Source: Brevibacterium yomogidense
Lineage (GTDB): Bacteria; Actinomycetota; Actinomycetes; Actinomycetales; Brevibacteriaceae
Reading direction: 5' to 3'
Length of the DNA stretch: 64,000 nt
Assembly: GCF_900163715.1 (NCBI RefSeq)
Contig: NZ_FWFF01000013.1
Span: 89,763-153,762 of the forward strand
Position numbers and translations under genes: made by a program. How positions within the stretch are numbered: position 1 is the first letter of the stretch; every line of letters starts with the position of its first letter. Shown in pieces: positions 921-59,061 of the stretch. Below the pieces are notes generated by a model, which was not told where the DNA came from, ran no database searches, and saw only the letters and a program-made list of their open reading frames with translations.

Positions 921-2317
921 GCGCGCGTGGCCTTCGTGAGCAGCTCCGCCACCTGGAACGCCATCTCGAGTGACTGATCGTGGTTGAGGCGAGGGTCGAC
1001 CAGGGTCTCGTAGCGACGACGCAGGCCCTCCTCGTCGATCTCCGCTCCGCCGCCCAGGACCTCCGTGACGTCGTCGCCCGTGAGCTCCACGTGCAGTCCG
1101 CCGGGGATCGTGCCCGCTTCGGCATGCGCGTCGAAGAAGCCGGAGACCTCTTCGACCACGTCTTCGAAGCGCCGGGTCTTGAAGCCGTTGCCCGACGTGA
1201 TCGTGTTGCCGTGCATCGGGTCGCACACCCACGCGACCTGCGGCAGCTCCGCCCCGACCTCGGCCAGCAGGGTGGGCAGCTTCTCGCGGATCTGGCCGGC
1301 GCCCATGCGGGTGATGAAGCTCAGGCGGCCGGGAGTGCGCTCCGGGTCGAGCTTGTCGACCAGACGCATGACGTCGTCCTTCGTCGTCGTGGGTCCGAGC
1401 TTCACACCGATCGGGTTGTGGACGCGGGACAGGAAGTCGACGTGCGCGCCGTCGACGTCACGGGTCCGCTCACCGATCCAGAGGAAGTGGCCGGACACCG
1501 CGTACGGATTGCCCGTCCGCGAATCGATCCGGGTCAGGGCGCTCTCGTATTCGAGCAGCAGCGCTTCGTGAGCGGCGAAGAACTCGACCGAGTTGATCGC
1601 ATCGAAGTCCGCACCGCAGGCCGCCATGAACTTCAGCGCACGATCGATCTCGCGCGCGATCTGCTCGTAGCGGTGGTAGTTCGGGTTCGAACCGAGGAAG
1701 CCCTGGTTCCACTCGTGGACGCGCCGCAGATCGGCGAAGCCGCCCTGCGTGAATGCGCGGATGAGGTTCAGCGTCGACGCGGAGACGTGGTACGCCTGCA
1801 GCAGGCGGTTCGGATCGTGACGACGGCCTTCCGGTGTGAAGGCATGGTCGTTGACGATGTCGCCGCGGTAGGACGGAAGCGTGGTCCCCTCACGGGTCTC
1901 CGAATCCGATGACCGCGGCTTGGCGAACTGACCGGCCATGCGGCCCATCTTCACGACCGGGACGGACCCACCGTAGGTGAGGACCGCCGCCATCTGGAGG
2001 ACGGTCTGGATGCGGCGCCGGATCTTGTCCGCCTCAGCATCCGCGAACGTCTCCGCGCAGTCGCCGCCGGTGAGGATGAAGGCCCTGCCCGCCGCGGCGT
2101 CCGCGATGCGGCTGCGCAGCAGATCCGCTTCGCCGGCGAAGATGAGCGGGGGAACAGCACGCAGTTCCGCCATCGCCTTCTCGAGCTCCGCCGCATCCTG
2201 ATAGGTGGGCTGCTGCTGCGGATCGAGACCGCGCCATTCCTCGAGTCCTGCGAGGGTCTCCGGGGTCGCGCGGACGGATCCCACTGCATCGAAGCGCGGG
2301 TCAGCGTGCAAGCTCAT
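917..2317 (-). CDS. aroG: Class II 3-deoxy-D-arabino-heptulosonate 7-phosphate synthase
   Basis: First enzyme of the shikimate pathway, condensing phosphoenolpyruvate and erythrose 4-phosphate. At 466 residues it matches the plant-like class II (AroAII) enzymes of actinobacteria, not the shorter class I type. Metal-ligand motifs are all visible: Cys in GGDCAETF, His in CDPMHGNTI, Glu in HVELTGDDV and Asp in DPRLNHDQS. The substrate segments KPRSSDSE and HNPIGVKLGPTT are also present. The ATG at 2317 has an AAAGG-like ribosome site about 7 nt upstream. The gene is followed with a 4-bp overlap by threonine aldolase. Class II enzymes of mycobacteria bind chorismate mutase; whether this one does cannot be read here. 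Confidence 0.96.
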   Translation of the reverse strand: MSLHADPRFDAVGSVRATPETLAGLEEWRGLDPQQQPTYQDAAELEKAMAELRAVPPLIFAGEADLLRSRIADAAAGRAFILTGGDCAETFADAEADKIRRRIQTVLQMAAVLTYGGSVPVVKMGRMAGQFAKPRSSDSETREGTTLPSYRGDIVNDHAFTPEGRRHDPNRLLQAYHVSASTLNLIRAFTQGGFADLRRVHEWNQGFLGSNPNYHRYEQIAREIDRALKFMAACGADFDAINSVEFFAAHEALLLEYESALTRIDSRTGNPYAVSGHFLWIGERTRDVDGAHVDFLSRVHNPIGVKLGPTTTKDDVMRLVDKLDPERTPGRLSFITRMGAGQIREKLPTLLAEVGAELPQVAWVCDPMHGNTITSGNGFKTRRFEDVVEEVSGFFDAHAEAGTIPGGLHVELTGDDVTEVLGGGAEIDEEGLRRRYETLVDPRLNHDQSLEMAFQVAELLTKATRA

Positions 2318-2359
2318 ATCGAGCCTTTCTCTGGTCGTTCGTGCCGAGCGCGAGGCGCG

Positions 2360-2995
2360 TCAGCGGCCGTCCGCGTCCTCCGCGGACGGATCGTCATCGG
2401 GATCATCGGACGGGTCGGACGCATCCGCCCGCCCGGGCTCTCCGGCCTGGTCGGGTCCTCCGGCCTGGTCGGGTTCAGCGTCGTCGGAATCCGACGCGCC
2501 GTCCGGTCCGTCTTCTGCCTCTGCGTCCGGGCTGAAGTCCTCAGCGGACACGTGATCGAGGAACTCCCGGAACTGCGCCACGGCGTCCTCATCAGGTTCA
2601 GGCGCGTCGATGCCGTCCTCATCCAGGACGGTCTCCGCCACGTAGACGGGCGCATCCGCGGTGAGGGCCAGGAGCACCGCATCCGACGGACGAGCGGAGA
2701 TCTGCTTCCCATCGCTCGTGTCGATGCGCGCGTAGAACGTGTGCTCCTCGCGTCCTGTGACGGTCACCCGCTCAATGCTCGCACCGTAGTGGTCGAGGAC
2801 GTCGAGCAGCAGCTGATGCGTCAGCGGACGAGCGGAGACCAGCCCCTTCTGCGTCATCTGGATGAGCGCCGATTCGGACGACCCGATCCAGATGGGCAGA
2901 TATCGGGGCCGCTCGACCGCTTTGAGGACGAGGATCGGCTGATTCGCGGGGAGCTCGATCCTGACTCCGACGACTTCTACTTCGAGATCCGCCAT
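2360..2995 (-). CDS. Bifunctional nuclease family protein (DUF151) with acidic tail
   Basis: Residues 1-140 form a DUF151/BFN domain, recognisable from VEVVGVRIELPANQPIL, YLPIWIGSSESALI and ARPSDAVLLAL. The domain is widespread in actinobacteria and a plant member was reported to have DNase and RNase activity; the bacterial role is unsettled. Residues 140-211 are a low-complexity Asp/Glu/Pro/Ser/Gly tail that is probably disordered and is unlike the compact family members. The gene lies 11 nt after the FHA gene. In many actinobacteria the FHA and DUF151 genes are separated by one or two MerR-type regulators (ftsR-like), and none is present here. Confidence 0.87.
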   Translation of the reverse strand: MADLEVEVVGVRIELPANQPILVLKAVERPRYLPIWIGSSESALIQMTQKGLVSARPLTHQLLLDVLDHYGASIERVTVTGREEHTFYARIDTSDGKQISARPSDAVLLALTADAPVYVAETVLDEDGIDAPEPDEDAVAQFREFLDHVSAEDFSPDAEAEDGPDGASDSDDAEPDQAGGPDQAGEPGRADASDPSDDPDDDPSAEDADGR

Positions 2996-3006
2996 CTGTT
3001 CCGCGC

Positions 3007-3978
3007 TCAGTTGGTCCGCGGACGCTGCTGGAAGATCATGCGGAACTTCCCGATCTGCACGTCCGCACCGTTCTGGAGCTCGATCGAATCGATGAGCTGA
3101 CGACCCACGTAGGTGCCGTTGAGCGATCCGGTGTCCCGCAGGGTGAAGCCCGACGGCGTCCTCACGAACTCCGCGTGCTTGCGCGAGACCGTCACATCGT
3201 CCAGGAAGATGTCCGCATTGGGGCTGCGTCCCACCGTGACGACGTCCGTATCGAGCAGGATCTGTGCCCCGGCATCCGGACCGGACACGACGACCAGGAG
3301 AGCGTCCGTCTCATCGAGGTTCTGCAGATCGGGAACGGGGTGGATCTCACCCGTGTGCGGGTCGAGGATGCCGGAGAACTGCTGATTCCCCGGGCTGCCC
3401 TGCTCCTGTCCTGCTGCCATCTGCGAACCGGCCTGCGGGTCGTTCCACTGCTGCGGAGGACCGCTCTGCGTGTGGCCCTGTGAGCCGAAGGCGTGGCCGG
3501 ACTGCCCGTCGGGGCTCTGGTGCTGGGGCCCGGAGCCGAACTGCCCGGACTGCGGCTGGGCCCACTGATCGCCCTGTCCCGCATAGTCCTGCGGTTCGGG
3601 CTGCGCCTGCTGGCCGTACTGCTGCGGGGGAACCTGGCCCTGCTGCTGCGCCCACTGCTGGTCGACCTGCGCCTGGCCCCATGCCTGAGGCTGCGAGCCC
3701 TGCTGGGGCTGGCTGTGCACTCCCTGGTCGTACTGCCCCTGGTCGTACTGCTGCGGGCTGTACTGCTGAGGTGCCGGCTGCTGGGACCAGTCCTGCTGGG
3801 GAACGGGCTGCGAGCTCTGGGGCTGTGAACCCTGCTGAGCGTCGTACTGCGGTTCCTGCGGAGCAGCCTCCGGCTCACCCTGCTGCCCGAACGGGAAGAC
3901 ATGTGGTGTCGCGGACGTCGACTCCTGGCCCTGCCACGGCTGCTGGCCGTCGGGGAACCCGCCGTTCTGCTGAGACAT
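3007..3978 (-). CDS. GarA/OdhI-like FHA domain protein with Gln-rich N-terminus
   Basis: The C-terminal part (about residues 220-320) is a forkhead-associated domain with the phosphothreonine-binding hallmarks VGRSPNADIFLDD, VSRKHAEF and GSLNGTYVG. It is very close to GarA/OdhI, which inhibits 2-oxoglutarate dehydrogenase under Ser/Thr kinase control. Residues 1-210 are instead a Gln/Pro/Gly/Ser/Tyr-rich disordered region with repeats such as QYDQGQYDQG; GarA has only about 45 residues before its domain. The canonical ETTS phosphorylation motif is not next to the FHA domain; the nearest resemblance is ESTSATPHVF at residues 19-28. The gene starts inside the gcvH stop codon (TGATG), so the two are coupled. 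A GarA-type role is likely but not proven. Confidence 0.85.
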   Translation of the reverse strand: MSQQNGGFPDGQQPWQGQESTSATPHVFPFGQQGEPEAAPQEPQYDAQQGSQPQSSQPVPQQDWSQQPAPQQYSPQQYDQGQYDQGVHSQPQQGSQPQAWGQAQVDQQWAQQQGQVPPQQYGQQAQPEPQDYAGQGDQWAQPQSGQFGSGPQHQSPDGQSGHAFGSQGHTQSGPPQQWNDPQAGSQMAAGQEQGSPGNQQFSGILDPHTGEIHPVPDLQNLDETDALLVVVSGPDAGAQILLDTDVVTVGRSPNADIFLDDVTVSRKHAEFVRTPSGFTLRDTGSLNGTYVGRQLIDSIELQNGADVQIGKFRMIFQQRPRTN

Positions 3979-4382
3979 CAGGCTCCTTCGCTTTCGACCG
4001 CCGCACGGTATGCGGCGCTGTCCATCAGTGCGTCGACCTCTGCCGGGTCAGACAGTCGGACGTCATAGATCCACCCGCCCGAATACGGGTCGGAGTTGAT
4101 CGTCTCCGGTGCGTCCTCGAGCGCTTCGTTCACCGTGATGACTTCACCGGAGACCGGGGCGACGAGGTCGGACACGCTCTTCGTGCTCTCCACCTCACCA
4201 CTCGACTCACCAGCGGTGACGGTGTCCCCGACCTCAGGCATGTCGACGAAGACGACGTCACCGAGTGAGTCCTGTGCGAAGTCCGTGATGCCTACCCGGA
4301 CGACCGAATCGTCGTCGGTTCGGTCGACCCACTCGTGCTCTGCGGAATAGTGCAGGCCTTCGGGAAAGGTGAGATCAGCCAT
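3978..4382 (-). CDS. gcvH: Glycine cleavage system H protein
   Basis: A 134-residue lipoyl carrier protein that shuttles the aminomethyl group between the P, T and L proteins of the glycine cleavage complex. The lipoyl-lysine site is K68 in GEVESTKSVSD, and the H-protein signatures HYSAEHEWV, GDVVFVDMPEVG and SDPYSGGWIYDV are intact. The ATG at 4382 is preceded by a strong GAGGAGGAG ribosome site. No gcvT or gcvP lies nearby, so the partners are elsewhere. Placement directly before the GarA-like gene is the usual actinobacterial arrangement. No glycine riboswitch was recognised in the leader; a TATGCT -10-like box lies upstream without a convincing -35. Confidence 0.96.
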   Translation of the reverse strand: MADLTFPEGLHYSAEHEWVDRTDDDSVVRVGITDFAQDSLGDVVFVDMPEVGDTVTAGESSGEVESTKSVSDLVAPVSGEVITVNEALEDAPETINSDPYSGGWIYDVRLSDPAEVDALMDSAAYRAAVESEGA

Positions 4383-4511
4383 GTCAACTCCTCCTCGTCA
4401 GGTCAATCCACCCCAGCATAGCCGCATCGGTGGCGCAGATCGCATTCCGGTGACGCGGACTGCGCGACTTCCCAGCACACCCCGCGCCGCGCGGGGCGCT
4501 GTCAGCAGAAT
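4383..4511. other. Intergenic leader between divergent gcvH and tRNA-Pro
   Basis: This gap carries the gcvH ribosome site and, at 4480-4496, a GC-rich inverted repeat (CCCCGCGCCGCGCGGGG). It may form a short hairpin but has no T-run and sits between two outward-reading genes, so it is not a convincing terminator. No small ORF or known riboswitch was recognised. Confidence 0.4.
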
Positions 4512-4541
4512 TTGCCCTCCCACTCAGCATTCGGATAAGGT
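4512..4541 (+). promoter_or_regulatory. Putative sigma-70-type promoter for tRNA-Pro
   Basis: A -35-like TTGCCC at 4512-4517 and a -10-like TAAGGT at 4536-4541 are separated by 18 nt. The predicted start near 4549 leaves a short leader before the tRNA at 4567. The match to consensus is moderate. Confidence 0.45.
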
Positions 4542-4566
4542 CATCCTCGGTTCACAGCGGAATCGA

Positions 4567-4643
4567 CGGGCTATGGCGCAGCTTGGTAGCGCGCTTGACT
4601 GGGGGTCAAGAGGTCGTGGGTTCGAATCCCGCTAGCCCGACCA
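4567..4643 (+). tRNA. tRNA-Pro (anticodon GGG)
   Basis: A complete cloverleaf can be drawn. The acceptor CGGGCTA pairs with TAGCCCG, the discriminator is A, and the CCA end is encoded (4641-4643). The anticodon arm CTTGA / CTGGGGG / TCAAG gives anticodon GGG, which reads CCC and CCU. The T arm contains GTTCGAATC. A 21-bp hairpin follows 2 nt after the CCA. Confidence 0.97.
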
Positions 4644-4645
4644 TC

Positions 4646-4691
4646 TGAGGAATGCCGGGACATCGTGCAGACGATGTCCCGGCATTCCTCA
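4646..4691. terminator. Long perfect hairpin between tRNA-Pro and tag
   Basis: A 21-bp perfect stem (4646-4666 with 4671-4691) closes on a GCAG tetraloop. It lies just after the tRNA and between convergent genes, so it probably works as a bidirectional terminator. It lacks a long T-run, as is common in actinobacteria. Confidence 0.8.
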
Positions 4692-4732
4692 TTCACACTC
4701 ATCACTCGAGCTGACCGAGTGCACCGAAGCTC

Positions 4733-5335
4733 TCACGCGTCCCACACCCCGGATGTCCCCCTCCTGTGGGATCCCACGAGATGCGTGTCGACGATGCCCA
4801 GCGCCTCCATGAGGGCGAACATCGTCGTGGGTCCCACGAACCGGAAACCCTCGCGCCGCAGGGCGCGGGCGAGCGCACGCGACTCGTCCGACTGCGTGGG
4901 GACCTCCGCGAGAGTCTGCGGTCGGGGCGTCTCCTGCGGCTGGAAGGACCAGATCAGCTCTGCGAGTCCTCCCCGCTCCCGCAGGGAGACCGTCGCCCGT
5001 GCATTGCCGACGGTCGCGAGGATCTTCGCGCGGTTGCGGACGATGCGGGCATCGGCGAGCAGGCGTGCGATGTCCGCATCGTCGAACCCGGCGACCGCGT
5101 CGGGATCGAAGCCCGCGAAGGCCTCACGGAACGCGGGGCGCTTCCTGAGGATCGTCGCCCAGGACAGTCCGGATTGGAACGCCTCGAGGCTGAGGCGCTC
5201 GAAGAGCCCCCGCTCGTCACGGACCGGCATCCCCCATTCCGTGTCGTAGTACGTGCGCAGGAGCGGATCGTGCGCTGCCCACGGCGGTCGTGCGAGGCCG
5301 TCGTCCCCCACGACCGTGCCCTGTGTCTCCGCCAT
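4733..5335 (-). CDS. tag: DNA-3-methyladenine glycosylase I
   Basis: A helix-hairpin-helix base-excision enzyme that removes 3-methyladenine from alkylated DNA. Family signatures are YYDTEWGMPV, LFERLSLEAFQSGLSWATIL and FVGPTTMFALMEA. The Tag zinc-binding set looks degraded: there is a conserved DTHLVG-H stretch near the C-terminus but no clear CxW at the N-terminus. The start at 5335 is preferred because GGAAGG sits 6 nt upstream; an ATG at 5341 would overlap the alkB stop as ATGA but would abut the ribosome site. The 200-residue length fits the family. Pairing with alkB makes a two-gene alkylation-repair operon. Confidence 0.9.
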   Translation of the reverse strand: MAETQGTVVGDDGLARPPWAAHDPLLRTYYDTEWGMPVRDERGLFERLSLEAFQSGLSWATILRKRPAFREAFAGFDPDAVAGFDDADIARLLADARIVRNRAKILATVGNARATVSLRERGGLAELIWSFQPQETPRPQTLAEVPTQSDESRALARALRREGFRFVGPTTMFALMEALGIVDTHLVGSHRRGTSGVWDA

Positions 5336-5337
5336 CG

Positions 5338-6063
5338 TCATCCTTCCAGGCCCGTCTCCCGCAGTGTGATGTTGAGGCGGCCCGATTCCAGTCCGACGCC
5401 CGCCGGAGCTGTGCCGGGGTGGACCGCGGGCACAGCGTGGAAGGCCATCCGTGAGGGGCCGCCGAAGACGAACAGGTCGCCGGATTCCAGGACGATGTCC
5501 TCGTACGGCTTCGTGCGCGTCTGCGTGTTGCCGAACCGGAAGGTGCACGAATCCCCGATCGACAGGGACACGACCGGTGCGCGGGACCTCTCGTCCCGGT
5601 CCTGGTGCATCCCCATCCGCGCAGCGTCATCGTAGAAGTTCACGAGCGCGGTGTCCGGTGTGTAGTCCCCCTCGAGATGGGGGGTCTCCTCCGACATGCT
5701 CGCCTGCTCTCCATACGCCGCCTCGATCGCGCTGCGCCCCAGGCGGATCATCCAGTCGGGCATGTCGAGGACCGCGTTCCCATTCACGTCCACGGCATCC
5801 CGCGAGTACGCGTAGGGGCGCCAGTGCCATCCCAGGCACACGGTCTCCACGCTCATCTCGTGGCCGCGGATCTTCGCCGACCGCGGCGGGACCGGCCCCG
5901 CCGCCCACTCGTGGAAGCGGTCGACCAGCCAGGCTTGCTGCGTCGGGGTGAGGAATCCTGGGACCCAGACGGCACCCGGAGCCAGCTCCCGGCGGGGCCG
6001 CGGAAGCAGGTCCTCGCCGAACAGTGCGTCGTCGAACCGGGCACCTTCGCCACTGCCACCCAT
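5338..6063 (-). CDS. alkB: AlkB-type alpha-ketoglutarate-dependent dioxygenase (DNA alkylation repair)
   Basis: An Fe(II)/2-oxoglutarate oxygenase that oxidatively removes N1-methyladenine and N3-methylcytosine lesions. The iron-binding HxD is seen in MGMHQDRDE, after the NFYDD segment. The distal His is probably that of MAFHAVP, and the 2-oxoglutarate-binding C-terminus RLNITLRE is intact. The ATG at 6063 gives 241 residues, near the family norm. The stop is followed almost at once by tag. The thioesterase-like gene upstream ends 8 nt before this start, so all three may share a transcript. No Ada-type regulator is in the window. Confidence 0.92.
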   Translation of the reverse strand: MGGSGEGARFDDALFGEDLLPRPRRELAPGAVWVPGFLTPTQQAWLVDRFHEWAAGPVPPRSAKIRGHEMSVETVCLGWHWRPYAYSRDAVDVNGNAVLDMPDWMIRLGRSAIEAAYGEQASMSEETPHLEGDYTPDTALVNFYDDAARMGMHQDRDERSRAPVVSLSIGDSCTFRFGNTQTRTKPYEDIVLESGDLFVFGGPSRMAFHAVPAVHPGTAPAGVGLESGRLNITLRETGLEG

Positions 6064-6071
6064 CCGCCGAC

Positions 6072-6902
6072 TCACACGCCCTTGAAGTACACGAGCTGGG
6101 TCGTCGTCGCGAGCAGCTCCCCGTCCTCGCCCCACACGTGACCGATCTGGTCGAAGTGGCCCTCATGGAAGCGCGAGGCCGCCGCCCGGCACAGGAGGTG
6201 CTCGCCCTGGGCTGCCAGGGCCTCCGGTGCGGTGTGGAAGTACACGGTGTAGCTGACTGTCCCCGCCGGCGACGGTGTGCCCGTCCGGGCGAAGATCCGC
6301 GGGAAGAACACGTCGCAGGCTGCCGCGAGGGACACGTGGTCCCACGGCCGCGGCTGCGTCTGCGACACCCACATGAGGGTCTCCGACGATTCGGAGGCCG
6401 CAGTCGGAACCCCGGACACGATGCGGAAGACGTAGTTCTCCATCCACGGCAGTGCCATCTGGTACGGGGTGATGTCGACGTCCGCGGGCGCGGGGACCTG
6501 CGGGACGGACAGCTCTGTGTCGGTGAACGTCTCGCGCCCCCGGGCTAGCAGCGCGGTGCCTGTGAGCACCGTGCCCGACTCCTGATCGATGCGCACGGTC
6601 CAGTGCTGGTTCGAGCGATTCGTCCGCACGGGGTCGACGACGATGTCCATCGTCCCCTCCTCGACCGGCGCCGCGAAGTTGAGGGTGAGCGCGGCAGGGC
6701 GCCCCTGCGCCCGCGGATCCGCTGTGATGCCGGCGAGCGCCTGCGCCGCGGTCGCACCGCCGTAGGGGCCCACCATGTTCGCCCACGCGGGATGGGTCCT
6801 CGCGGTGACCGTCCGGGGGCCCTCAGGCCCTGCATCGGGCGTGGACTGCGCCCCGTCGGTCGGAACTTCCAAGGCGATGAGTGCATCGAACGTGTGAGTC
6901 AT
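6072..6902 (-). CDS. Acyl-CoA thioesterase family protein (hotdog fold, TesB-like)
   Basis: A 276-residue protein with two hotdog-type halves, as in TesB/thioesterase-like superfamily members. The first half includes HPAWANMVGPYGGATAAQAL and PAALTLNFAAPVEEG; the second includes PWDHVSLAAACDVFFPR and SYTVYFHT. Such proteins hydrolyse medium- or long-chain acyl-CoAs; the substrate cannot be deduced. The ATG at 6902 was chosen over an upstream in-frame start because the extension looks noncoding. It is transcribed divergently from the NRPS-like gene across about 116 bp, and towards alkB and tag. Confidence 0.78.
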   Translation of the reverse strand: MTHTFDALIALEVPTDGAQSTPDAGPEGPRTVTARTHPAWANMVGPYGGATAAQALAGITADPRAQGRPAALTLNFAAPVEEGTMDIVVDPVRTNRSNQHWTVRIDQESGTVLTGTALLARGRETFTDTELSVPQVPAPADVDITPYQMALPWMENYVFRIVSGVPTAASESSETLMWVSQTQPRPWDHVSLAAACDVFFPRIFARTGTPSPAGTVSYTVYFHTAPEALAAQGEHLLCRAAASRFHEGHFDQIGHVWGEDGELLATTTQLVYFKGV

Positions 6903-7018
6903 GAGCCGATCGTATCCGGGCTCACACCGGGCAGCACTCCGTCCTGCCCGACACCCTCCGTTCACCTGCTGCGGATATCATCGATCCGTCCATCTCGCAG
7001 AGCAGGAGACACCGACAC

Positions 7019-10000
7019 GTGACCCACCTCCCCCACGAGTCTCCGACGGAGATGCACTCGCCGCAGTTCCCCGCCGGCGATCGGGCGCCTTCTGCCCGCA
7101 CACTCATCGATCTGATCATGGAGACCGCTGCCGCGCACCCGGACTCGCCCGCCATCGACGACGGGACGACGGTGCTGCGGTACCGGGAGCTGCTCGAGAC
7201 GATGCGGGACCGCGCACTCGCCCTGGCAGATGCCGGGGTGGGGCCGGGCGACACAGTGGGCGTGCGCGTCACGTCCGGGACGACGGACCTCTACACGGCC
7301 ATCCTCGGCATCCTCATGGTCGGCGGCGCCTATGTCCCCGTCGACGTGGACGATCCGGATGAGAGAGCGCGCACCGTCTTCTCCGAGGCGGAGTGCGCCG
7401 CTGTGGTCACCGACGGGTTCACGATCGACGTCCGGCACCGCCGCACTCCGGACCAGGTCCCCCCGCTCAGAGCACCGGAGCCGTCCGATGACTGCTGGGT
7501 GATCTTCACCTCGGGCTCCACCGGCACTCCGAAGGGCGTCGCAGTCTCGCATCGCTCCGCAGCGGCCTTCGTCGACGCCGAGGCGAGGATCTTCTGCAGC
7601 GCGGAGCCGCTGCGGCCCGGCGACCGCGTGCTCGCCGGCCTGTCCGTGGCGTTCGACGCGAGCTGTGAGGAGATGTGGCTCGCGTGGAGATCCGGTGCCT
7701 GCCTGGTGCCCGCACCCCGGTCACTCGTGAAATCGGGCATGGATCTGGGCCCGTGGCTCGCGAACCGCGGCATCACGGTCGTGTCCACCGTGCCGACCCT
7801 CGCATCGCTGTGGCCCGCGGAGACCCTCGCGAACGTCCGACTGCTGATCTTCGGCGGGGAAGCGTGCCCTCCTGAACTGGCTGCCCGGCTCTCCGACGAG
7901 GATCGCGAGGTCTGGAACACCTACGGCCCGACCGAGGCCACGGTCGTCACCTGCGCGGCTCCACTCGATGGATCGGACCCCGTGCGCATCGGACTGCCGC
8001 TGGACGGATGGGACATGGCGATCGTCGACCCGGCGACCGGCGTCCCGGTCGCCGACGGGGCCACCGGCGAGCTGATCATCGGCGGCGTCGGCCTGGCCCG
8101 CTACCTCGACCCCGCCAAGGACGCGGAGAAGTACGCGCCCATGCCCACTCTCGGGTGGGAGCGCGCATACCGCTCCGGGGACCTCGTCGTCATGGACCCG
8201 GAGGGCCTCATCTTCGTGGGCCGCGCAGACGAGCAGGTGAAGCTGGGCGGCCGCCGCATCGAACTGGGAGAGATCGACGCCTCACTCCAAGCGCTGCCCG
8301 GAGTGGCCGGCGGCGCCGCCGCTGTGAAGGACACGCCCGCCGGCATGCAGCTGCTCATCGGGTACCTCGCCCCGGAGATACCCGGCGACGATCGGCGGGA
8401 GGACTGGACCGCACTGCTGCGGCAGGAGCTGCCCCCGGCACTGGTGCCCCGGCTGGTCCTCGTCGACGACCTGCCCACGAAGACCTCCGGCAAGGTCGAC
8501 CGCAATGCACTGCCGTGGCCCCTGCCCGGTGAAGAGCCCGCAGACGGCGACCGCGACGAACTGCCCGAGTCCACGCGCTGGTTCGCGGACCAGTGGGAGG
8601 CGGTGCTGGGCACCGTGCCCACCCTCGACTCCGACTTCTTCGACTCCGGCGGCGGGTCACTCGCAGCCGCCCAGCTGGTCTCCCGCCTGCGCACGCGCCA
8701 CGCCGGTGTGACGGTCGGCGACGTGTACTCCGTGCCCCGCTTCGGTGCGCTCGTCGACGTCGCCTCAGAGACCGACGATGCGGCGCCCGCGCGCGCTCGC
8801 CGGACGATCACGCGCACGCGGTACTCGATGCAGGCGCTCCAGACCCTGCTCGGCATCCCCGTCCACGTGCTCGCCGCGATGAAGTGGGCTGTGCTCGCGC
8901 TGGTCATCGTGAATCTCGCGGGTCTGGCGGGGATGGAGGTCCCGACGGTGAGCTGGTGGCTCATCGTTGCGCTCTTCGGCGTGTTCGTCACCCCGTGGGG
9001 CCGCATGCTCATCTCCGCGGGGGCAGCACGAGCGCTGCTGCGCGGAGTCTCACCTGGCACGTACCCGCGCTCCGGCTCCGTGCACCTGCGCCTGTGGCTC
9101 GCGGAGCACGTGGCGGACCTCGCCTCAGCCGTCTCCGTCGCCTCGGCGCCGTGGGTCACCTGGTACGGCCGGCTGCTCGGAAATCGGATCGGCCCGAACG
9201 TCGACCTGCACTCGATCCCGCCCGTCACCGGGATGCTCACACTCGCCGAGGGCGCCTCCATCGAGCCGGAGGTCGACTTCAAGGGCTGGTGGGTCGACGG
9301 CGACGTCGTCCACATCGGCCCGATCCGAGTGGGCGAGTACGCGGTCGTCGGCGCCCGTTTGACGCTGCTGCCCGGCTCGCGGGTGGGAGCAGGAGCCGTC
9401 GTCGAGCCCGGATCCGCTGTGAACGGGAAGCTGCGCCGGGGGCAGGTGTACTCCGGTTCGCCTGCCATGCGGGTCCGCAAGGCTCAGATCGACTTCCCCG
9501 AATCGCCTCCTCGCCGTCGGCGCACCCCCTTCCTGCTCTATGCGATCGGCTCCGTCCTCCATGCCGCCATCCCCCTGCTCGCCGCCGTCCCCGGTCTGGC
9601 TCTCATGTTCGCCGTGTCCGGTCCCGAGGCCGCGGTCACGCCCCTCGTCCTCCTCGCCTGGTCCCCCGTGCTCGGCCTCACCTGGTTCGCCACCACGGCG
9701 CTGCTGATCGTGCTGGCGGTGCGCGCACTGGCGATCGGGATGAAGGAGGACGTCGTCCCGGTGAGGTCCTTCGCGGGCTACCGCGTGTGGGCGACGGAGC
9801 GGATCATGGACATGGCTCGCGACCTCCTCTTCCCCCTCTACGCAGGGCTCCTCACCCCGGTGTGGCTGCGGCTGCTGGGCGCGAAGGTGGGACGAGACGT
9901 CGAGGTGTCGACCGTGCTCCTGGTGCCGTCGATGACCACGATCGCGGACGGCGCGTTCCTCGCGGACGACACGATGGTCGCGAGCTACGAGCTGGGCAAC

Positions 10001-10951
10001 GGCTGGATGAGGGTCGGACGGGCGAAGGTGGGCAAGCGCGCCTTCCTCGGCAATTCCGGTATGGCTGCGGCCGGTCGACGTGTTCCGAAGAACGCACTCG
10101 TCGCCGTGCTGTCCGCTGCACCCACCAAGGCCAAGAAGGGCTCGAGCTGGATCGGCTCCCCACCCGTCGAGCTCCGTCGCTCGGAGGTCGCGGCCGACTC
10201 CGCGCTCACGTACAAGCCGTCGGCCCGCCTGCGTCGCCTCCGGGGGATGTGGGAGACGCTGCGCCTGCTGTCGGTCATCGCCGGGGCGCTCGTCGTCACG
10301 GGCGTCATCGGCGCTCTCATCGGACTCCACTCGGCACTCGCGCAGACCCTCTCGAACACCGCCGCCGCGGTCGTCATGCTCCTCCTGTCCGGTGTCGTCA
10401 TGATGCTCGCCGGGGCGGTCGCCGCGGGCATCGCAGTCGCTGCGAAGTGGATCTGCGTGGGACGCATCCGCCGATCAGAGCATCCCCTCTGGTCATCGTT
10501 CATCTGGCGCAGCGAGCTCGCGGACACGTTCGTCGAGCTCGTCGCCGCACCCTGGTTCGCGCGCACGGCGGTCGGCACACCCGCGCTCGTCTGGTACCTG
10601 CGCGCGCTGGGCGCGAGGATCGGGCACGGCGTGTGGTGCGAGACGTACTGGCTGCCGGAGGCCGATCTCGTCTCCCTGGGAGACAACTCCACCGTCAACC
10701 GGGGCTGCGTCGTCCAGACCCACCTCTTCCACGACCGCGTCATGAGCCTCGACACCGTCACGCTCGACCCGGGCGCCACGCTCGGCCCGAACAGCGTCAT
10801 CCTGCCGGCCGCAACCATCGGAGACGCGGCCACCGTCGGACCCGCGAGCCTCGTGATGCGCGGTGAGTTCGTCCCGGCGAATGCGTACTTCATGGGCAAT
10901 CCGGTCGTACCCTGGATCGATGCGCCCACCATCCCCTCCGAGGAGGACTGA
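7019..10951 (+). CDS. Pls-like single-module NRPS (candidate non-alpha poly-amino-acid synthetase)
   Basis: A 1310-residue membrane synthetase with the layout of epsilon-poly-L-lysine synthetase. Residues 20-495 are an adenylation domain (FTSGSTGTPKG at 163-173, NTYGPTE, YRSGDL, K492). Residues 510-585 are a carrier domain with phosphopantetheine serine S547 in FFDSGGGSL. Then follow about six membrane helices (pairs near 617-670, 837-907 and 1080-1147) alternating with three tandem soluble domains with hexapeptide-like character (about 695-820, 920-1040, 1160-1295). No condensation or thioesterase domain is seen. Aligning by hand to GrsA gives specificity residues D213 A214 E217 S256 I277 G279 T301 V309 V310 K492, close to the Lys code. 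GTG start with AGGAG 10 nt upstream. The matching family is TIGR02353-type. Product identity is inference. Confidence 0.88.
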   Translation: MTHLPHESPTEMHSPQFPAGDRAPSARTLIDLIMETAAAHPDSPAIDDGTTVLRYRELLETMRDRALALADAGVGPGDTVGVRVTSGTTDLYTAILGILMVGGAYVPVDVDDPDERARTVFSEAECAAVVTDGFTIDVRHRRTPDQVPPLRAPEPSDDCWVIFTSGSTGTPKGVAVSHRSAAAFVDAEARIFCSAEPLRPGDRVLAGLSVAFDASCEEMWLAWRSGACLVPAPRSLVKSGMDLGPWLANRGITVVSTVPTLASLWPAETLANVRLLIFGGEACPPELAARLSDEDREVWNTYGPTEATVVTCAAPLDGSDPVRIGLPLDGWDMAIVDPATGVPVADGATGELIIGGVGLARYLDPAKDAEKYAPMPTLGWERAYRSGDLVVMDPEGLIFVGRADEQVKLGGRRIELGEIDASLQALPGVAGGAAAVKDTPAGMQLLIGYLAPEIPGDDRREDWTALLRQELPPALVPRLVLVDDLPTKTSGKVDRNALPWPLPGEEPADGDRDELPESTRWFADQWEAVLGTVPTLDSDFFDSGGGSLAAAQLVSRLRTRHAGVTVGDVYSVPRFGALVDVASETDDAAPARARRTITRTRYSMQALQTLLGIPVHVLAAMKWAVLALVIVNLAGLAGMEVPTVSWWLIVALFGVFVTPWGRMLISAGAARALLRGVSPGTYPRSGSVHLRLWLAEHVADLASAVSVASAPWVTWYGRLLGNRIGPNVDLHSIPPVTGMLTLAEGASIEPEVDFKGWWVDGDVVHIGPIRVGEYAVVGARLTLLPGSRVGAGAVVEPGSAVNGKLRRGQVYSGSPAMRVRKAQIDFPESPPRRRRTPFLLYAIGSVLHAAIPLLAAVPGLALMFAVSGPEAAVTPLVLLAWSPVLGLTWFATTALLIVLAVRALAIGMKEDVVPVRSFAGYRVWATERIMDMARDLLFPLYAGLLTPVWLRLLGAKVGRDVEVSTVLLVPSMTTIADGAFLADDTMVASYELGNGWMRVGRAKVGKRAFLGNSGMAAAGRRVPKNALVAVLSAAPTKAKKGSSWIGSPPVELRRSEVAADSALTYKPSARLRRLRGMWETLRLLSVIAGALVVTGVIGALIGLHSALAQTLSNTAAAVVMLLLSGVVMMLAGAVAAGIAVAAKWICVGRIRRSEHPLWSSFIWRSELADTFVELVAAPWFARTAVGTPALVWYLRALGARIGHGVWCETYWLPEADLVSLGDNSTVNRGCVVQTHLFHDRVMSLDTVTLDPGATLGPNSVILPAATIGDAATVGPASLVMRGEFVPANAYFMGNPVVPWIDAPTIPSEED

Positions 10952-10956
10952 CGTCC

Positions 10957-12276
10957 GTGCTTGATGACTACACCCCCGATTCGGGACATGAGGACTACAC
11001 CGTCGAGCACTACGACCTCGACCTCGATTACCGACTGGGCCCCAATCGCCTCGATGGGACGGCCCGCCTGAGCGTCCGCGTACTCGCCGACGCCGCGTCG
11101 CTGAGGGTCGACCTCGTGGGACTCGGGGTCGACCGCGTCCGCGTCGACGGGCAGCGGGCGCGCTTCCGGCAGCGTCAGCGCCACGTCGACGTCACCCTGC
11201 CCGCGAAGAGGGGACCCGGCGACGAGCTCGTCCTGGAGATCCGCTATTCCGGCACTCCGGAGCCCGTGATGGGGACGTGGGGAGACGTCGGCTGGGAGGA
11301 GCTGGAGGACGGCTCGCTGGTCGCGGGCCAGCCCAACGGCTCGGCCACCTGGTACCCGGTCAACGACCACCCGGCCCACAAGGCGACGTACCGCATCAGC
11401 GTCCTCACCGACGCGGACTACTCCGTCATCGCCAACGGGCGGCTGACGGGGAAGAGCAGAGCCTCCCGCGGCACCCGCTGGGAGTGGACCTCGGACACGC
11501 CGCTGGCCCCCTACCTCGCGAGCGTCCAGATCGGCCGCTACCGCATCGACGACCTGCCCGGTGACGAGGGTGACGGGACAGTTCCGCAGTGGCTGGCCGC
11601 CCCCCGCCTCACCTGGCATGCAGCGGCCCTCGTCCTGAAGAAGCAGCGGCGGATGCTCGACGTCTTCGAGGACTGGTTCGGGCCCTACCCGTTCGACTCC
11701 TACGGCGTCGTCGTCACGCACGAGGCTCTCGAGATCCCCCTCGAGTCCCAGCCGTTCTCCATCCTGGGCGCCAACCACCTGCTGCCCACCTGGGAGGCGG
11801 AGAGGCTGGTCGCCCACGAGCTGTCGCACCAGTGGTTCGGCAATTCCGTGTCGATCCGCCGCTGGCGCGACCTCTGGCTGAATGAGGGGTTCGCCTGCTA
11901 CGCGGAGTGGATCTGGTCGGACGCCAAGGACAGGCGATCGATCGCAGACTGCGCTGACGAGGTCCACGCGGAGCACGTCGACCTCCCGCAGGACATCCGC
12001 GTGGGCGATCCGGGCGGACCGGACATGTTCGACGATCGCGTGTACAAGCGCGGTGCGCTCACGCTCGAGGCTCTGCGGCGCACGGTCGGGGACGCGGACT
12101 TCCGGCGGATCGTCCAGGAGTGGTGCGCCCGGAACCGGCACGGCCACGGGGACGCGGAGACCTTCTTCGCTCTCGTCGCAGAGATCGCGGACATCGATGC
12201 GCACTCCCTGCTCGATCCGTGGCTCACGCAGGAGCGGCTCCCGGACCTGCCAGCGCGCGCAGGGCTGAACGCATGA
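10957..12276 (+). CDS. M1 family zinc metallopeptidase
   Basis: A 439-residue gluzincin with the zinc site H287-E-L-S-H291 and third ligand E310 in WLNEGFACYAEW, the HEXXH-x18-E pattern of M1 aminopeptidases. The exopeptidase GAMEN segment is altered to PLESQ. No signal peptide is visible, so it is probably cytoplasmic. It has the N-terminal beta domain and catalytic domain but not the large C-terminal helical domain of PepN. The GTG start lies 5 nt after the synthetase stop, with GGAGG upstream, so the two genes form an operon. In streptomycetes, polylysine-degrading enzymes are M1-type zinc peptidases; a polymer-trimming or self-protection role here is inferred from that. Confidence 0.9.
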   Translation: MLDDYTPDSGHEDYTVEHYDLDLDYRLGPNRLDGTARLSVRVLADAASLRVDLVGLGVDRVRVDGQRARFRQRQRHVDVTLPAKRGPGDELVLEIRYSGTPEPVMGTWGDVGWEELEDGSLVAGQPNGSATWYPVNDHPAHKATYRISVLTDADYSVIANGRLTGKSRASRGTRWEWTSDTPLAPYLASVQIGRYRIDDLPGDEGDGTVPQWLAAPRLTWHAAALVLKKQRRMLDVFEDWFGPYPFDSYGVVVTHEALEIPLESQPFSILGANHLLPTWEAERLVAHELSHQWFGNSVSIRRWRDLWLNEGFACYAEWIWSDAKDRRSIADCADEVHAEHVDLPQDIRVGDPGGPDMFDDRVYKRGALTLEALRRTVGDADFRRIVQEWCARNRHGHGDAETFFALVAEIADIDAHSLLDPWLTQERLPDLPARAGLNA

Positions 12277-12331
12277 GCGGACTCGTCCGGTTCGCGTGAG
12301 ACGACCCGGGCGCGCCGCCTGAGCAGACCCC

Positions 12332-12820
12332 TCAGATGCTGCGCAGCAGGATGTCCGCACCGCCTTCGCGCCCGGCGATGACGAAGCCGTTCTCCGCGAA
12401 GAACTCCCCCGCCGTATTCAGCTCATGCACGGCGAGGCTCACGGATCCGCGCCCGGACAGGCGCAGCAGGTCCAGGACGGCGCGTACGAGGTGCGTGCCG
12501 TAGCCGTGGCCCTGCGCTGCCGGGTCGACCGCGATGCGGAGTTCGGGGATCTGGTCCCCGGCCCACCCCAGGCCGCGCCAGCCGTCGTGCGGCAGTCGGA
12601 CCCACGCGGCGCCCACCGCCTGCTCGTCGTCGTCGAGGATGACGACGCCGGTGTCCCCCGGTCGCCCCCAGCCGTCCAGGTATCCGGCCAGCACGTCGTC
12701 CGCGGCGATCTGCGCATCGGACAGCGGAGGGGAATCGATCGACCAGTTGACGGTCTGCGCGAGGAAGGGGCGGAGCATGCCCTCCGCGCTCGCATCATCG
12801 GGAACGGGTACTAGCTTCAT
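12332..12820 (-). CDS. GNAT family N-acetyltransferase
   Basis: A 162-residue acetyltransferase. The acetyl-CoA binding motif A is LRIAVDPAAQGHGYGTHLVR with the Q/R-x-x-G-x-G/A pattern, and the C-terminal NTAGEFFAENGFV matches motif B. The substrate is unknown. The start is ambiguous between ATG 12820 and an upstream GTG at 12841; the ATG was chosen because it opens directly into the predicted fold. It converges on the M1 peptidase gene and lies about 50 nt after the MATE gene. A link to the polymer cluster is possible but unsupported. Confidence 0.85.
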   Translation of the reverse strand: MKLVPVPDDASAEGMLRPFLAQTVNWSIDSPPLSDAQIAADDVLAGYLDGWGRPGDTGVVILDDDEQAVGAAWVRLPHDGWRGLGWAGDQIPELRIAVDPAAQGHGYGTHLVRAVLDLLRLSGRGSVSLAVHELNTAGEFFAENGFVIAGREGGADILLRSI

Positions 12821-12871
12821 GACGACATTCTGTCCGATCACCGGCCGCAGTGCGAACCTCCGCGCGGATGC

Positions 12872-14188
12872 TCAGCGGATGCCGCGGGCAAGTGCCCGGT
12901 CGATCCATGCGCGTCCGCGGGCGCGCATGCCCAGCGTGACTCCGCGAGCGCCCAGGAACCCGAGGACGAAAGCGGCCCAGGCCGTGAGCGCGTGCGGCCA
13001 GAGTGCCATGGCGCCGTAGAGGATCACGGCGAACACCGCCAGGGACACGACCTGCGCGAGCGCGAGGTAGCGCGCGTCCTCTGCGCCCAGCAGCACGCCG
13101 TCCAGCACGAACACGACTCCGGCCAGGGGGAGGCTCACGGCGAACACGAGCAGCAGCGCGGTGATGAGCGACCGCACTGCCGGGTCTCCCGTGAACGCGG
13201 CGGGGATCCACGCGGCACCGGCAGCGATGAGGATCGCGCAGACGATGCCGAATCCCACGCCCCAGCGGACCAGTCGCGCTGTGATCCTCTGCACTCCGGG
13301 CACGTCCTGCGCGCCCAGCCGCAGAGCGATGAGAGCCTGGCCCGCGATCGCCAGCGCGTCGAGCGCGAGCGCCATCGCGAAGAACAGGGTCTGGACGACC
13401 TGGACAGCCGCCAGCTGCTGGGTGCCCAGCGCAGTGGCCTCGAAGACGAGGAGGATGAGTGCTGCGCGCAGGGCCGCACTCCGGACCACCAGCCACCCGG
13501 AGGTCCTGGCCGACGACCACACGCCCGTCCACTGGGGCAGCAGACTGGCCCCGTGCCGGGCGGCCGCGCGGAAGGCGATGACGAGGATGACGGCCGCCAT
13601 GCCCGCCTGGGCGATGACGCTGCCGATCGCGGACCCCGCGATCCCGAGGTCCAGCCCGTAGATGAGGATCGCGTTGAGGACGATGTTCGCTCCGAATCCG
13701 CCGCCGGCGACCCAGAGCGGAGTCGTCGTGTCCTGCAGTCCGCGCAGCAGGCCGGTGCCCGCGATGACGAGCAGCATGAACGGCAGGCCCCACCACGAGA
13801 TCGTCAGGTACGTGAGGGCGGCGGCCGCGACCTCGGGCCCGGGCCCGAACGCTCCGATCACCGGACCCACTAGCGGCAGCCCACCCAGCAGCAGGAGTGC
13901 GGAGATGACGACGGACAGCCACATCCCGTCGAATCCTGCGCTCACCGCCCCGCGGATATCGCCGCTGCCCATGCGCTTCGCGACGCGGGGCGTGGTGGCA
14001 TAGGCGAGGAAGATCATGAGCCCCAGCACCGTCTGCAGCACGGTCGATGCGATCGCGAGCCCGCCCAGGGCGGGTGCCCCCAGATGGCCGACCATCGCGG
14101 TGTCGGCGAGGAGGAAGAGGGGTTCGGCGATGAGGGCGCCCAGTGCGGGCACGGCCAGGCGGAGGATCTCGCGATCGACGGGTTTCAT
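12872..14188 (-). CDS. MATE family efflux transporter (DinF subgroup)
   Basis: A 438-residue integral membrane protein with about 12 hydrophobic helices in two related halves. The N-terminal PALGALIAEPLFLLADTAMV and VGHLGAPALGGLAIAS segments are typical of DinF-type multidrug and toxic compound extrusion proteins. These are cation-coupled antiporters; the substrate is unknown. The gene lies downstream of the acyl-CoA carboxylase on the same strand, with a 45-nt gap. DinF relatives often sit near DNA-damage genes, but none adjoins it here. Confidence 0.9.
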   Translation of the reverse strand: MKPVDREILRLAVPALGALIAEPLFLLADTAMVGHLGAPALGGLAIASTVLQTVLGLMIFLAYATTPRVAKRMGSGDIRGAVSAGFDGMWLSVVISALLLLGGLPLVGPVIGAFGPGPEVAAAALTYLTISWWGLPFMLLVIAGTGLLRGLQDTTTPLWVAGGGFGANIVLNAILIYGLDLGIAGSAIGSVIAQAGMAAVILVIAFRAAARHGASLLPQWTGVWSSARTSGWLVVRSAALRAALILLVFEATALGTQQLAAVQVVQTLFFAMALALDALAIAGQALIALRLGAQDVPGVQRITARLVRWGVGFGIVCAILIAAGAAWIPAAFTGDPAVRSLITALLLVFAVSLPLAGVVFVLDGVLLGAEDARYLALAQVVSLAVFAVILYGAMALWPHALTAWAAFVLGFLGARGVTLGMRARGRAWIDRALARGIR

Positions 14189-14233: not shown

Positions 14234-17200
14234 TCAGCCGATCGTCTGCGCCCAGGCGCGGGTGTCCGCCGGGTCGATGACGTCGTCGACGTCGAAGACC
14301 ATCGCCGCGCTCAGCGCCCTGCCCTGCGCGTACAGCTGATCGACGAGCTCCGCCTCACGTGCGGCCCGGTCCCGCGCGTCGTCGATCGCGGCGAGCTCCT
14401 TCGCGTAGCCCAGGCGGACCGCTCCCTCCAGGCCCATCGGCCCGATCTCACCACTGGGCCACGCGACGGTGAAGTGCGGTACCGCGAACCCGCCGCCCAC
14501 CATCGCCATGGCGCCCAGACCGTAGCCCTTGCGGATCACGAACGCGCCCAGCGGCGTCCGCAGGCGCGCGCCCGCGACGAAGAGATCGCCGAACGCTCGC
14601 ACCCCCGGCTCGTGCTCGGCGTCGGGACCCACCATGAAGCCCGGGGTGTCGACGAACGACAGGACGGGCAGCCCGTGATCGTCCGCCAGCCGCAGGTGCT
14701 GCGTGAAGGAGCGGGCCGCATCGACGTCGATCGCGCCGCCCAGGTGGGAGTTGTCGTTGGCCAGGAACGCGAACGGCGCACCCGCGATGCGAAGGAAGCC
14801 GGTGATCGCACCGGGAGCGAAGCGGGGGCGTACCTCGACGAGGGAGTCCGCGTCCGCGACCGATTCGAGCACCGCCCGCATCGAGAAGGCGCGCAGCCGG
14901 TCCGCGGGGACAGCGCTGCGCGAGGAGTCGGCGGGCGGGGCGACGGTCTTCGCAGCGGGTGCCCTCCGCACGGACAGGTAGCCCAGCAGACGGCGCGCGG
15001 TCGCGACCGCGTCCGCCTCGTCACGGGCGACGAGGTCGAGCACTCCGGTCGCCTCGTGGACCTCGACGGGTCCGATGTCGTCGGGCCGGTGGCGGCCCAG
15101 TCCGCCGCCCTCGATCATCGCGGGTCCGCCCATGCCGATGTTCGCCTCCGGAGTCGCGATGATGAGGTCGCAGACACCGGCCAGCGCCGCATTGCCGGCG
15201 AAGCTCCGGCCGGAGACGACCGCCACGAGCGGTACCCGGCCCCGCAGCGCGGCCAGGGACCCGAAGGTGGGCACGCTCAGCCCCGCGGTGGGCGCGCGGT
15301 CCGTGTCGCCGGGACGTCCGCCTCCGCCCTCCGCGAAGAGGACGACCGGAGCGGACCTCCGCGCGGCGAGCTCCAGGAGCCGGTCCGTCTTCGCGTGGTT
15401 GCGCGTGCCCTGCGTGCCGGCGAGCACGGAGTAGTCGTAGCTCATGACGACGACCTCGTGGCCGTCGATCGTCGCGACTCCGCCGATCAGGCCGTCACCG
15501 GAGGTGCGGGCGATGAGGTCCTCGACGCTGCGCCTGCGCGTCTGGGCGGCGATGACGAGGGGACCGTACTCGACGAAGCTGCCGGGATCGACGAGGTCGG
15601 CGATGTTCTCCCGCGCCGTCCGCCTCCCGCGGGCCCGGATCCCCGCGAGCGCGTCCTCACGCTCCTCGTCGGCGACCGCTGCGTGCCGTTCCCGGACCTC
15701 GGCCACGTCGGGATGGGGTGCGGCCTCCTCCGCGGCGTCTGCCCCCGCGGCTGCGGCGCCCGTGACGACTGCGACCGGTGCCCCCTCGGCCACGTAGTCG
15801 CCCACCTCGACCAGGTGGCGCACGTGCGCCGACGGCGGGCCCGCGATCGGGTGGTGCATCTTCATCGCCTCGAGGAGTGCGTACTCCCCCGGCACGTCGC
15901 CGATCGCCACGACGGTGCCGGACACCGTCGCGCGCACCAGCGTCTGGTCGGGTCCCAGCTCGTGCTCCGCGAGGACCGCCGCCGAGGTCGTTCCCACCCC
16001 GCCGTCGCCGCCGGCGCGCGCGGACGGCGGGCTCGCGGTCGCGTCGCGTGCGCGGGCCTCGTCGTCGAGCTCCCGGGCGCGTTCCGCCAGGCGAGGGGCT
16101 GAGGTGTCGAACGACGTCGTCGTCTCGTGTCCCGGCTCCAGCTGCTCGCCGATAGCCCGCAGCAGACCCGCGTTCGTGTCGAGGCCCTCGATCCGCGTCT
16201 CCGCGAGCGCGCGGTCCGCTCCCCGGAGTGCGGTCTCAAGGCTGTCGCCGTGCACGATGATCTTCCCCAGAAGCGAATCGAACGCGCCCGTCACGGTGCT
16301 GCCCGCTTCGATCCACGTATCGACGCGCACGCCGGGACCAGTGGGCCAGGTGACCGCGGTCGTTCGCCCCACGCTGGGCACCGGGTCCCCGGCCGGAGAC
16401 ACCGTCTCCGCTGCGACGCGCAGCTGGACGGCGGTGCCGCGCGGGACCGGATCGCGGGGATGGGCAGGTTCTCTGCATGCGGCCACTGCGAGCTGGCAGG
16501 CGACGAGGTCGATCCCCGTGACTGCCTCCGTCACGGTGTGCTCCACCTGGATCCGCGGGTTCACCTCGAGGAGGACATGGGAGTCTCCCGTCACGAGGAA
16601 CTCGACGGTCGCCAGCGACTGATAGGACAGGGGCTCCACGAGCCGGAGCGCGTCCGCGTGGATGCGCGCGCGCAGGTCCTCGCCGAGTCCGGGCGCGGGT
16701 GCGATCTCCACGAGCTTCTGCCGCCGGCGCTGGATCGAGCAGTCGCGGTCGCCCAGCACGTGCACGCCCTCCGGTGTGCCGAGCACCTGCACCTCGATGT
16801 GCCGAGCGTCGACCACCAGGGCCTCTGCGAAGACACGGCCGTCCCCGAAGCCGGCCCGGGCCTCGGCGGCGCATGCTGTCAGCGCCTCCGGCAGCGCGTC
16901 CGCCTCGTGCACGATGCGGATGCCGCGGCCACCGCCCCCGGCGACGGCCTTGATCGCCACGCCCGCGGGGTGAGCGGCGAGGAGGGCGCGGACCTCCACG
17001 ACGGAGGGGTCGTCACCGGCGGCGCAGTCGCCGCCTGCCCCGGCCGGTGGGGGCGTTCCGGGAGCCGTGGGCTCCAGCAGTCCCGTCGCCGCGGGCACGG
17101 GGACGCCCACCGCGAGAGCGTGCGCGCGAGTGGCCGTCTTGTCCCCGAACAGCTCGAGCGCGTGCGGGTCCGGCCCCACCCAGGTGAGGCCGGCCTCCGC

Positions 17201-58909: not shown

Positions 58910-59061
58910 CGCGAGGGAAGCCGGAGTTCATCTTCCTCACATCTGGTGCTCATCTGTCCTCAGCCTTCTGCTCGCCGCCAGTCCATACCGTCGTCGCGGT
59001 CGTGCCTGCGCTTTCATCCGCCCGCAGGCTCAATACCCACAGAAGTATCCGGAAGGACACC

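Follow-up and report, generated by a model that had tools for sequence, protein, structure and literature searches.

A Predicted Epsilon-Poly-L-Lysine Synthetase Gene and Its Likely Peptidase Partner in Brevibacterium yomogidense

The Question Raised by the Locus

The window considered here, a stretch of 64,000 nucleotides from Brevibacterium yomogidense (contig NZ_FWFF01000013.1), sits in a 3.29-Mb genome (G000) and contains a long open reading frame at 7019-10951, which raises the question of which product, if any, the encoded enzyme makes. An initial annotation had proposed a synthetase of the polylysine type (Pls), and this proposal is upheld by the TIGR02353 profile score, by an adenylation pocket code that agrees with the solved chain 7WEW at all ten positions, and by the presence of phosphopantetheinyl transferases in the genome. 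The frame is very probably a TIGR02353-family pls gene that shares a likely operon with the M1-family peptidase gene behind it; the pair is predicted to produce epsilon-poly-L-lysine (epsilon-PL) and to trim the polymer or render it harmless. An antimicrobial-polymer operon that has already been described is thereby extended to one more likely Brevibacterium species, in line with the published view that small coryneform actinobacteria may make epsilon-polylysine.

The Synthetase Gene and Its Domain Layout

The frame is a real gene, because it is preceded by a likely ribosome-binding site, shows a strong, coding-type guanine-plus-cytosine content by codon position (0.71/0.52/0.89), and encodes a product with relatives near full length (P0002, 1310 amino acids, 93% identity over 100%; P0004, 1324 amino acids, 83% over 99%). 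Its parts are as follows.

7019-10951, + strand: pls, Pls/PosA-family synthetase of 1310 amino acids, GTG start (TIGR02353 profile match)
7004-7008, + strand: AGGAG, likely ribosome-binding site of pls, ahead of the GTG (read directly)
7070-8530, + strand: adenylation (A) domain, residues 18-504, code DAESIGTVVK (633.6 bits to 7WEW)
8579-8758, + strand: carrier (T) domain, residues 521-580, with the Ser547 codon at 8657-8659 (PF00550, 28.9 bits)
8855-8989, + strand: predicted membrane-helix pair 1, residues 613-631/639-657 (hydropathy; helices in the AlphaFold2 model)
8990-9562, + strand: C1 repeat, modelled as left-handed beta-helix type
9563-9742, + strand: predicted membrane-helix pair 2, residues 849-867/890-908 (hydropathy; helices in the AlphaFold2 model)
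9743-10264, + strand: C2 repeat, modelled
10265-10426, + strand: predicted membrane-helix pair 3, residues 1083-1101/1118-1136 (hydropathy; helices in the AlphaFold2 model)
10427-10948, + strand: C3 repeat, hexapeptide acyltransferase-like

The TIGR02353 profile check, which the initial annotation had recommended, gives 677.9 bits against a cut-off of 423.1 and covers profile positions 1-695 of 695. A Pfam scan places one A domain (PF00501), one carrier domain (PF00550) and hexapeptide repeats over their cut-offs, while the C-terminal A subdomain scores just below its own (21.6 versus 24.5 bits), and no condensation (C) or thioesterase (TE) domain is listed by Pfam at E values up to 0.001. The carrier motif reads GGGS547L, with serine at position 547 in 81 of 81 aligned proteins. 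Scanning hydropathy over 19 residues with a threshold of 1.6 yields six peaks in three pairs, followed by about 190, 175 and 175 residues, respectively. Pfam, hydropathy and modelling together give the TIGR02353-type layout of a single A domain, a single T domain, neither C nor TE domain, and six membrane helices around three soluble repeats. The architecture originally described for the 1310 residues (one A domain, a carrier at S547, no C or TE domain, about six helices and three soluble domains) agrees with these results.

Two PF01648 proteins exceed the cut-off in the genome, one of the AcpS type (122.7 versus 107 bits) and one PptT-like, which at 217.9 bits stays below the cut-off of 365 of that narrow model. 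A lack of phosphopantetheinyl transferases, which the initial annotation had named as an argument against its own reading, is therefore not what the genome presents.

The Adenylation Pocket and the Predicted Substrate

The code DAESIGTVVK corresponds to residues 213, 214, 217, 256, 277, 279, 301, 309, 310 and 492 of the product, placed by motif, with GrsA numbering, rather than by structure superposition. These letters, and their 8/10 match to DAESIGSVCK, had been reported before and are reproduced here; DAESIGSVCK is the code of bacitracin BacB. A nearer comparator is the closest solved chain in a sequence search, 7WEW ('Epsilon-poly-L-lysine synthase'), which scores 633.6 bits along the A domain and is identical at 306 of 480 A-domain residues (64%) and at all ten code positions. 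It is named as an epsilon-PL synthetase A domain in PMC10522769, and the context there places its origin in Streptomyces albulus. The same ten residues recur in all 80 named loci examined (L004-L083), a set made up of the 80 best among at least 586 relatives and hence biased to close ones.

With the Pls of S. albulus the window enzyme thus shares the ten-residue code, the 64% identical A domain, a peptidase partner gene and the architecture as described in PMC8117764, but the host lineage differs, the topology of the window's partner is uncertain, and the product of the window enzyme is a predicted one. The delta-poly-L-ornithine synthetase PosA of Acinetobacter baumannii, compared by description only, has the same family, A-T-C layout, pocket Asp and Glu and modelled C-terminal beta-helix, but its code is DMEHNGTVSK, with Met at position 2, and it is described as a single-gene operon without neighbours (PMC10522769). 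PosA cannot do without the Asp and Glu at code positions 1 and 3, and position 2 was proposed to set chain length, being Phe in the poly-diaminopropionate/poly-diaminobutyrate (PDAP/PDAB) synthetase, Met in PosA and Ala in Pls; the epsilon-poly-beta-lysine code, DGESISVVNK, has Gly there (PMC10522769). The window pocket holds Asp213, Ala214 and Glu217 and follows the published Pls rule at position 2; neither the Met of the PosA type nor the Phe of the PDAP/PDAB type occupies that position.

The pocket bears directly on the possibility that a synthetase of the same family makes another cationic homopolymer here, namely delta-poly-ornithine, gamma-poly-diaminobutyrate (Dab), beta-poly-diaminopropionate (Dap) or epsilon-poly-beta-lysine. 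Pocket codes are imperfect guides and one architecture makes all of these polymers (PMC10522769), but the Ala at position 2, as in Pls and unlike the Met, Phe or Gly of the others, renders this possibility quite improbable. Pocket code and partner gene were the grounds for rejecting ornithine, Dab, Dap and beta-lysine polymers as the first choice.

An A-domain tree of 25 rows (the window, 7WEW, four second copies and 19 loci picked from the 80 to cover their range) places B. jeotgali and B. senegalense beside the window (100/98 and 100/99). Its deep forks are unresolved and 7WEW is unplaced, so no weight is given to it; one second copy, L087, forms a very long branch, and the rows of the other three, L088-L090, were cut too long.

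The M1 Peptidase Partner

What lies behind pls, a gene that the initial annotation did not mention, offers a second line of evidence. This peptidase gene begins 5 bases after the pls stop codon.

10957-12276, + strand: gene for an M1-family metallopeptidase of 439 amino acids, GTG start, placed like pldII (PF01433 95.9 bits, PF17900 40.3 bits)
10940-10947, + strand: GAGGAGGA, likely ribosome-binding site of the peptidase gene, within the last pls codons (read directly)
11815-11886, + strand: HELSH...E, zinc-site motif HEXXH-X18-E of the M1 peptidase (pattern search)

HEXXH-X18-E is the zinc motif of family M1 and GxMEN the usual exopeptidase motif of M1 enzymes. The zinc motif is kept in all 80 M1 frames read, that of the window and 79 others, and GxMEN is absent from all 80. 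The likely ribosome site inside pls agrees with a report that translation of pldII is coupled to that of pls in S. albulus (PMC9223678). In gene position and enzyme type the window enzyme resembles PldII, being a metallopeptidase encoded right after pls. Such pls-peptidase pairs are known from Streptomyces and Corynebacterium variabile, and PldII of Streptomyces degrades epsilon-PL (PMC8117764). The two window genes likely form an operon whose putative polymer-degrading peptidase would act by analogy with these systems.

An M1 match lies 3' of pls on the same strand in 79 of the 80 loci and starts at most 120 bases from the pls stop in 62 of them. In 4 loci the best match is a later piece of the peptidase only, 806 bases from the stop, and in 13 (Tsukamurella, Williamsia, Jongsikchunia) it starts 629-4002 bases downstream; none was found downstream of pls in Gordonia jacobaea (L068). 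The arrangement spans Brevibacterium, Kocuria, Cryobacterium, Rhodococcus, Tsukamurella, Kribbella and others. This recurrence across many genera, even with the 13 more distant cases, and the published account of pls sharing an operon with a degrading enzyme in Streptomyces and C. variabile (PMC8117764) make it improbable that the M1 gene is an ordinary housekeeping aminopeptidase downstream by chance, despite the fact that M1 peptidases are common and that the nearest solved relative by sequence, 6a8z, is annotated merely as a putative zinc metalloprotease.

Among the synthetases compared in PMC8117764, the peptidase partner accompanies Pls and not the three others, which argues further against a different homopolymer. 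The M1 partner thus points to epsilon-PL over polymers of ornithine, Dab, Dap or beta-lysine.

Divergent Synthetases in the Genus and Beyond

How far code and partner go together can be judged from divergent copies. Three genomes of the genus (G008, G044, G054) contain a second TIGR02353 match over the cut-off, and in G055 the divergent match is the sole one. The copy in G008 (L087) has the code DFECLSVVTK, with Phe at position 2, L088 and L089 have DAESIGSVIK, and L090 has DAESIGTVIK. The three Lys-code copies (L088-L090) are 44% identical to the window synthetase, and L089, the G044 copy, is interrupted by one in-frame TGA. No M1 match accompanies L087-L090 in the stretches of 6.4-7.0 kb taken (6.5 kb for L087).

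Because Lys-code copies without an M1 match exist, the partner alone is no strict marker of Pls; the Phe-code L087, which likewise has no M1 match in its 6.5-kb stretch, speaks against another homopolymer in the window and is set clearly apart by its code. Code and partner vary within the family, and both together, on sequence criteria, place the window gene with Pls.

Of ten Phe-code relatives whose codes were read, nine have DFECLSVVTK and one, P0124, has DFECLSTVTK. Five of 120 listed L087 relatives (P0149, P0150, P0176, P0182, P0214) contain a fused domain, PF01648 in four and the aspartate kinase domain PF00696 in one. These domains are in keeping with a Dap or Dab product, and the fused Phe-code relatives are possibly self-arming, precursor-supplying homopolymer synthetases. 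Two observations were made by eye. The L087 synthetase (positions 2-3475 of the L087 stretch, which lies on G008:C1) is followed by a membrane-type protein and a frame resembling a further phosphopantetheinyl transferase (about 4341-5465 of that stretch), and P0124 of Arthrobacter pigmenti (1828 amino acids) has an extra, Pls-like but altered A domain ahead of its Phe-code synthetase.

The C-Terminal Polymerising Half

At the time of PMC10522769, no structural information existed for the polymerising half of this enzyme class, and a beta-helix fold of the C-terminal repeats had been modelled for PosA (PMC10522769). The AlphaFold2 model of the C-terminal part of the window enzyme reaches a predicted template modelling score of 0.87 and a mean predicted local distance difference test score of 82.6, and hexapeptide-acyltransferase matches were found for the same part. 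One feature stands out within it.

10715-10735, + strand: Q1233-x-H1235-x-x-x-D1239, candidate catalytic motif of C3 (identical in 81/81 Pls)

Q-x-H-x-x-x-D is also identical in all rows counted (18/18) of an alignment with Phe-code enzymes among its 19 rows, one row being left out, and together with E1214 it is unchanged down to a relative of about 29% identity for which another product is predicted. An invariant histidine occurs in C3 but in neither of the other two beta-helix repeats, C1 and C2. Conservation makes this histidine motif a candidate catalytic centre. A broader proposal, to which we give somewhat less than an even chance, is that in all Pls/PosA enzymes the polymerising half is an intramolecular hexapeptide-acyltransferase pseudo-trimer with a single C3 active site (Q1233-x-H1235-x-x-x-D1239 with E1214), C1 and C2 serving as scaffold. 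If true, an acyltransferase fold, instead of a condensation domain, forms the peptide bonds in this class, for which the C3 motif provides a concrete residue for testing.

Proposed Mechanism and Points against It

In the predicted pathway, a genome-encoded phosphopantetheinyl transferase would arm Ser547. The A domain would adenylate L-lysine, its presumed substrate, whose alpha-amine would be held by Asp213 and whose side-chain amine by Glu217, as judged from their PosA counterparts Asp217 and Glu221, and the carrier would then be loaded with lysine. For these three steps there is support from the sequence, the identical pocket and the conserved motifs. The three C repeats, modelled as a membrane-anchored beta-helix set like a hexapeptide acyltransferase trimer, would hand the lysyl thioester to the amine of free lysine or of the growing chain, most likely at a C3 active site around His1235, a step suggested by model and conservation; the epsilon linkage and the length of the polymer are presumed. 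Finally, the product would leave the cell and the M1 peptidase may cut it, as proposed from the published Streptomyces work.

Several points weigh against this reading. PosA prefers ornithine even though a Lys-activating domain is its nearest code match (PMC10522769), and a substrate deduced from the code is therefore uncertain. PldII of S. albulus is described as located outside the membrane (PMC9223678), in contrast to the window peptidase, for which no membrane helix is predicted (top hydropathy 1.26). No promoter- or terminator-like sites were found in 6800-12900, although with 0.3 and 0.7 expected by chance this is a weak test. The Pls of C. variabile and of cheese and skin Brevibacterium (PMC8117764) shares the coryneform host and the A-T-TM/C1-C3 layout (TM, transmembrane) with the window enzyme, which belongs to another species with B. 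jeotgali nearest at 93%. The C. variabile pls, of the same architecture and with a peptidase partner, made epsilon-PL in Streptomyces coelicolor, but according to PMC8117764 neither C. variabile itself, under the conditions used, nor C. glutamicum with its gene made any. For this reason the window operon, whose expression is presumed, may be silent as well; by the same token, a polymer-free culture alone would not disprove its function.

A gene copy that has decayed or is silent, and so yields no polymer, would also accord with the report that the Pls protein was undetected in C. variabile itself (PMC8117764) and with the dispensability of the gene, since a match over the TIGR02353 cut-off is lacking in 13 of the 57 genomes from the genus. 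It is nevertheless very unlikely: the frame is open over 1310 codons, the code residues and the carrier serine are intact, residues 600-1310 retain every one of the 191 positions at which 80 or more of the 81 proteins agree, and the product is 93% identical to that of B. jeotgali. A functional epsilon-PL operon remains the preferred reading.

Distribution

The remaining 44 genomes of the genus, the window's own included, contain a TIGR02353 match over the cut-off. Among the loci listed, the nearest named relative belongs to B. jeotgali (93%), followed by those of B. senegalense (84%, 83%). When 296 genomes were sampled evenly across the phylum, 14, again including the window's own, exceeded the cut-off, and the best match in each of the 13 others has the code DAESIGTVVK (13/13) and an M1 match nearby (13/13); second over-cut-off matches in G217, G184 and G064 were left out of this code reading. 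In print, 14 of 15 cheese and skin isolates of Brevibacterium are stated to carry pls (PMC8117764), and an epsilon-PL-like cluster is given for B. luteolum and B. casei (PMC12467314). The window gene is therefore a further member of an already described set, and the pls-peptidase pairing is widespread.

Other Genes in the Window

Near the operon, on the - strand, adjoining genes for a Tag-type 3-methyladenine DNA glycosylase and an AlkB-like protein (4733-5548 and 5338-6135) form an alkylation-repair pair. A single-chain carboxylase of 1089 amino acids with biotin carboxylase and carboxyltransferase domains (14234-17503, - strand) adjoins a fatty-acid-type gene set comprising acyl-CoA ligase, thiolase and acyl-CoA dehydrogenases. 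A Choice-of-anchor I family protein (459.8 bits) is encoded at 59002-61095 on the + strand.

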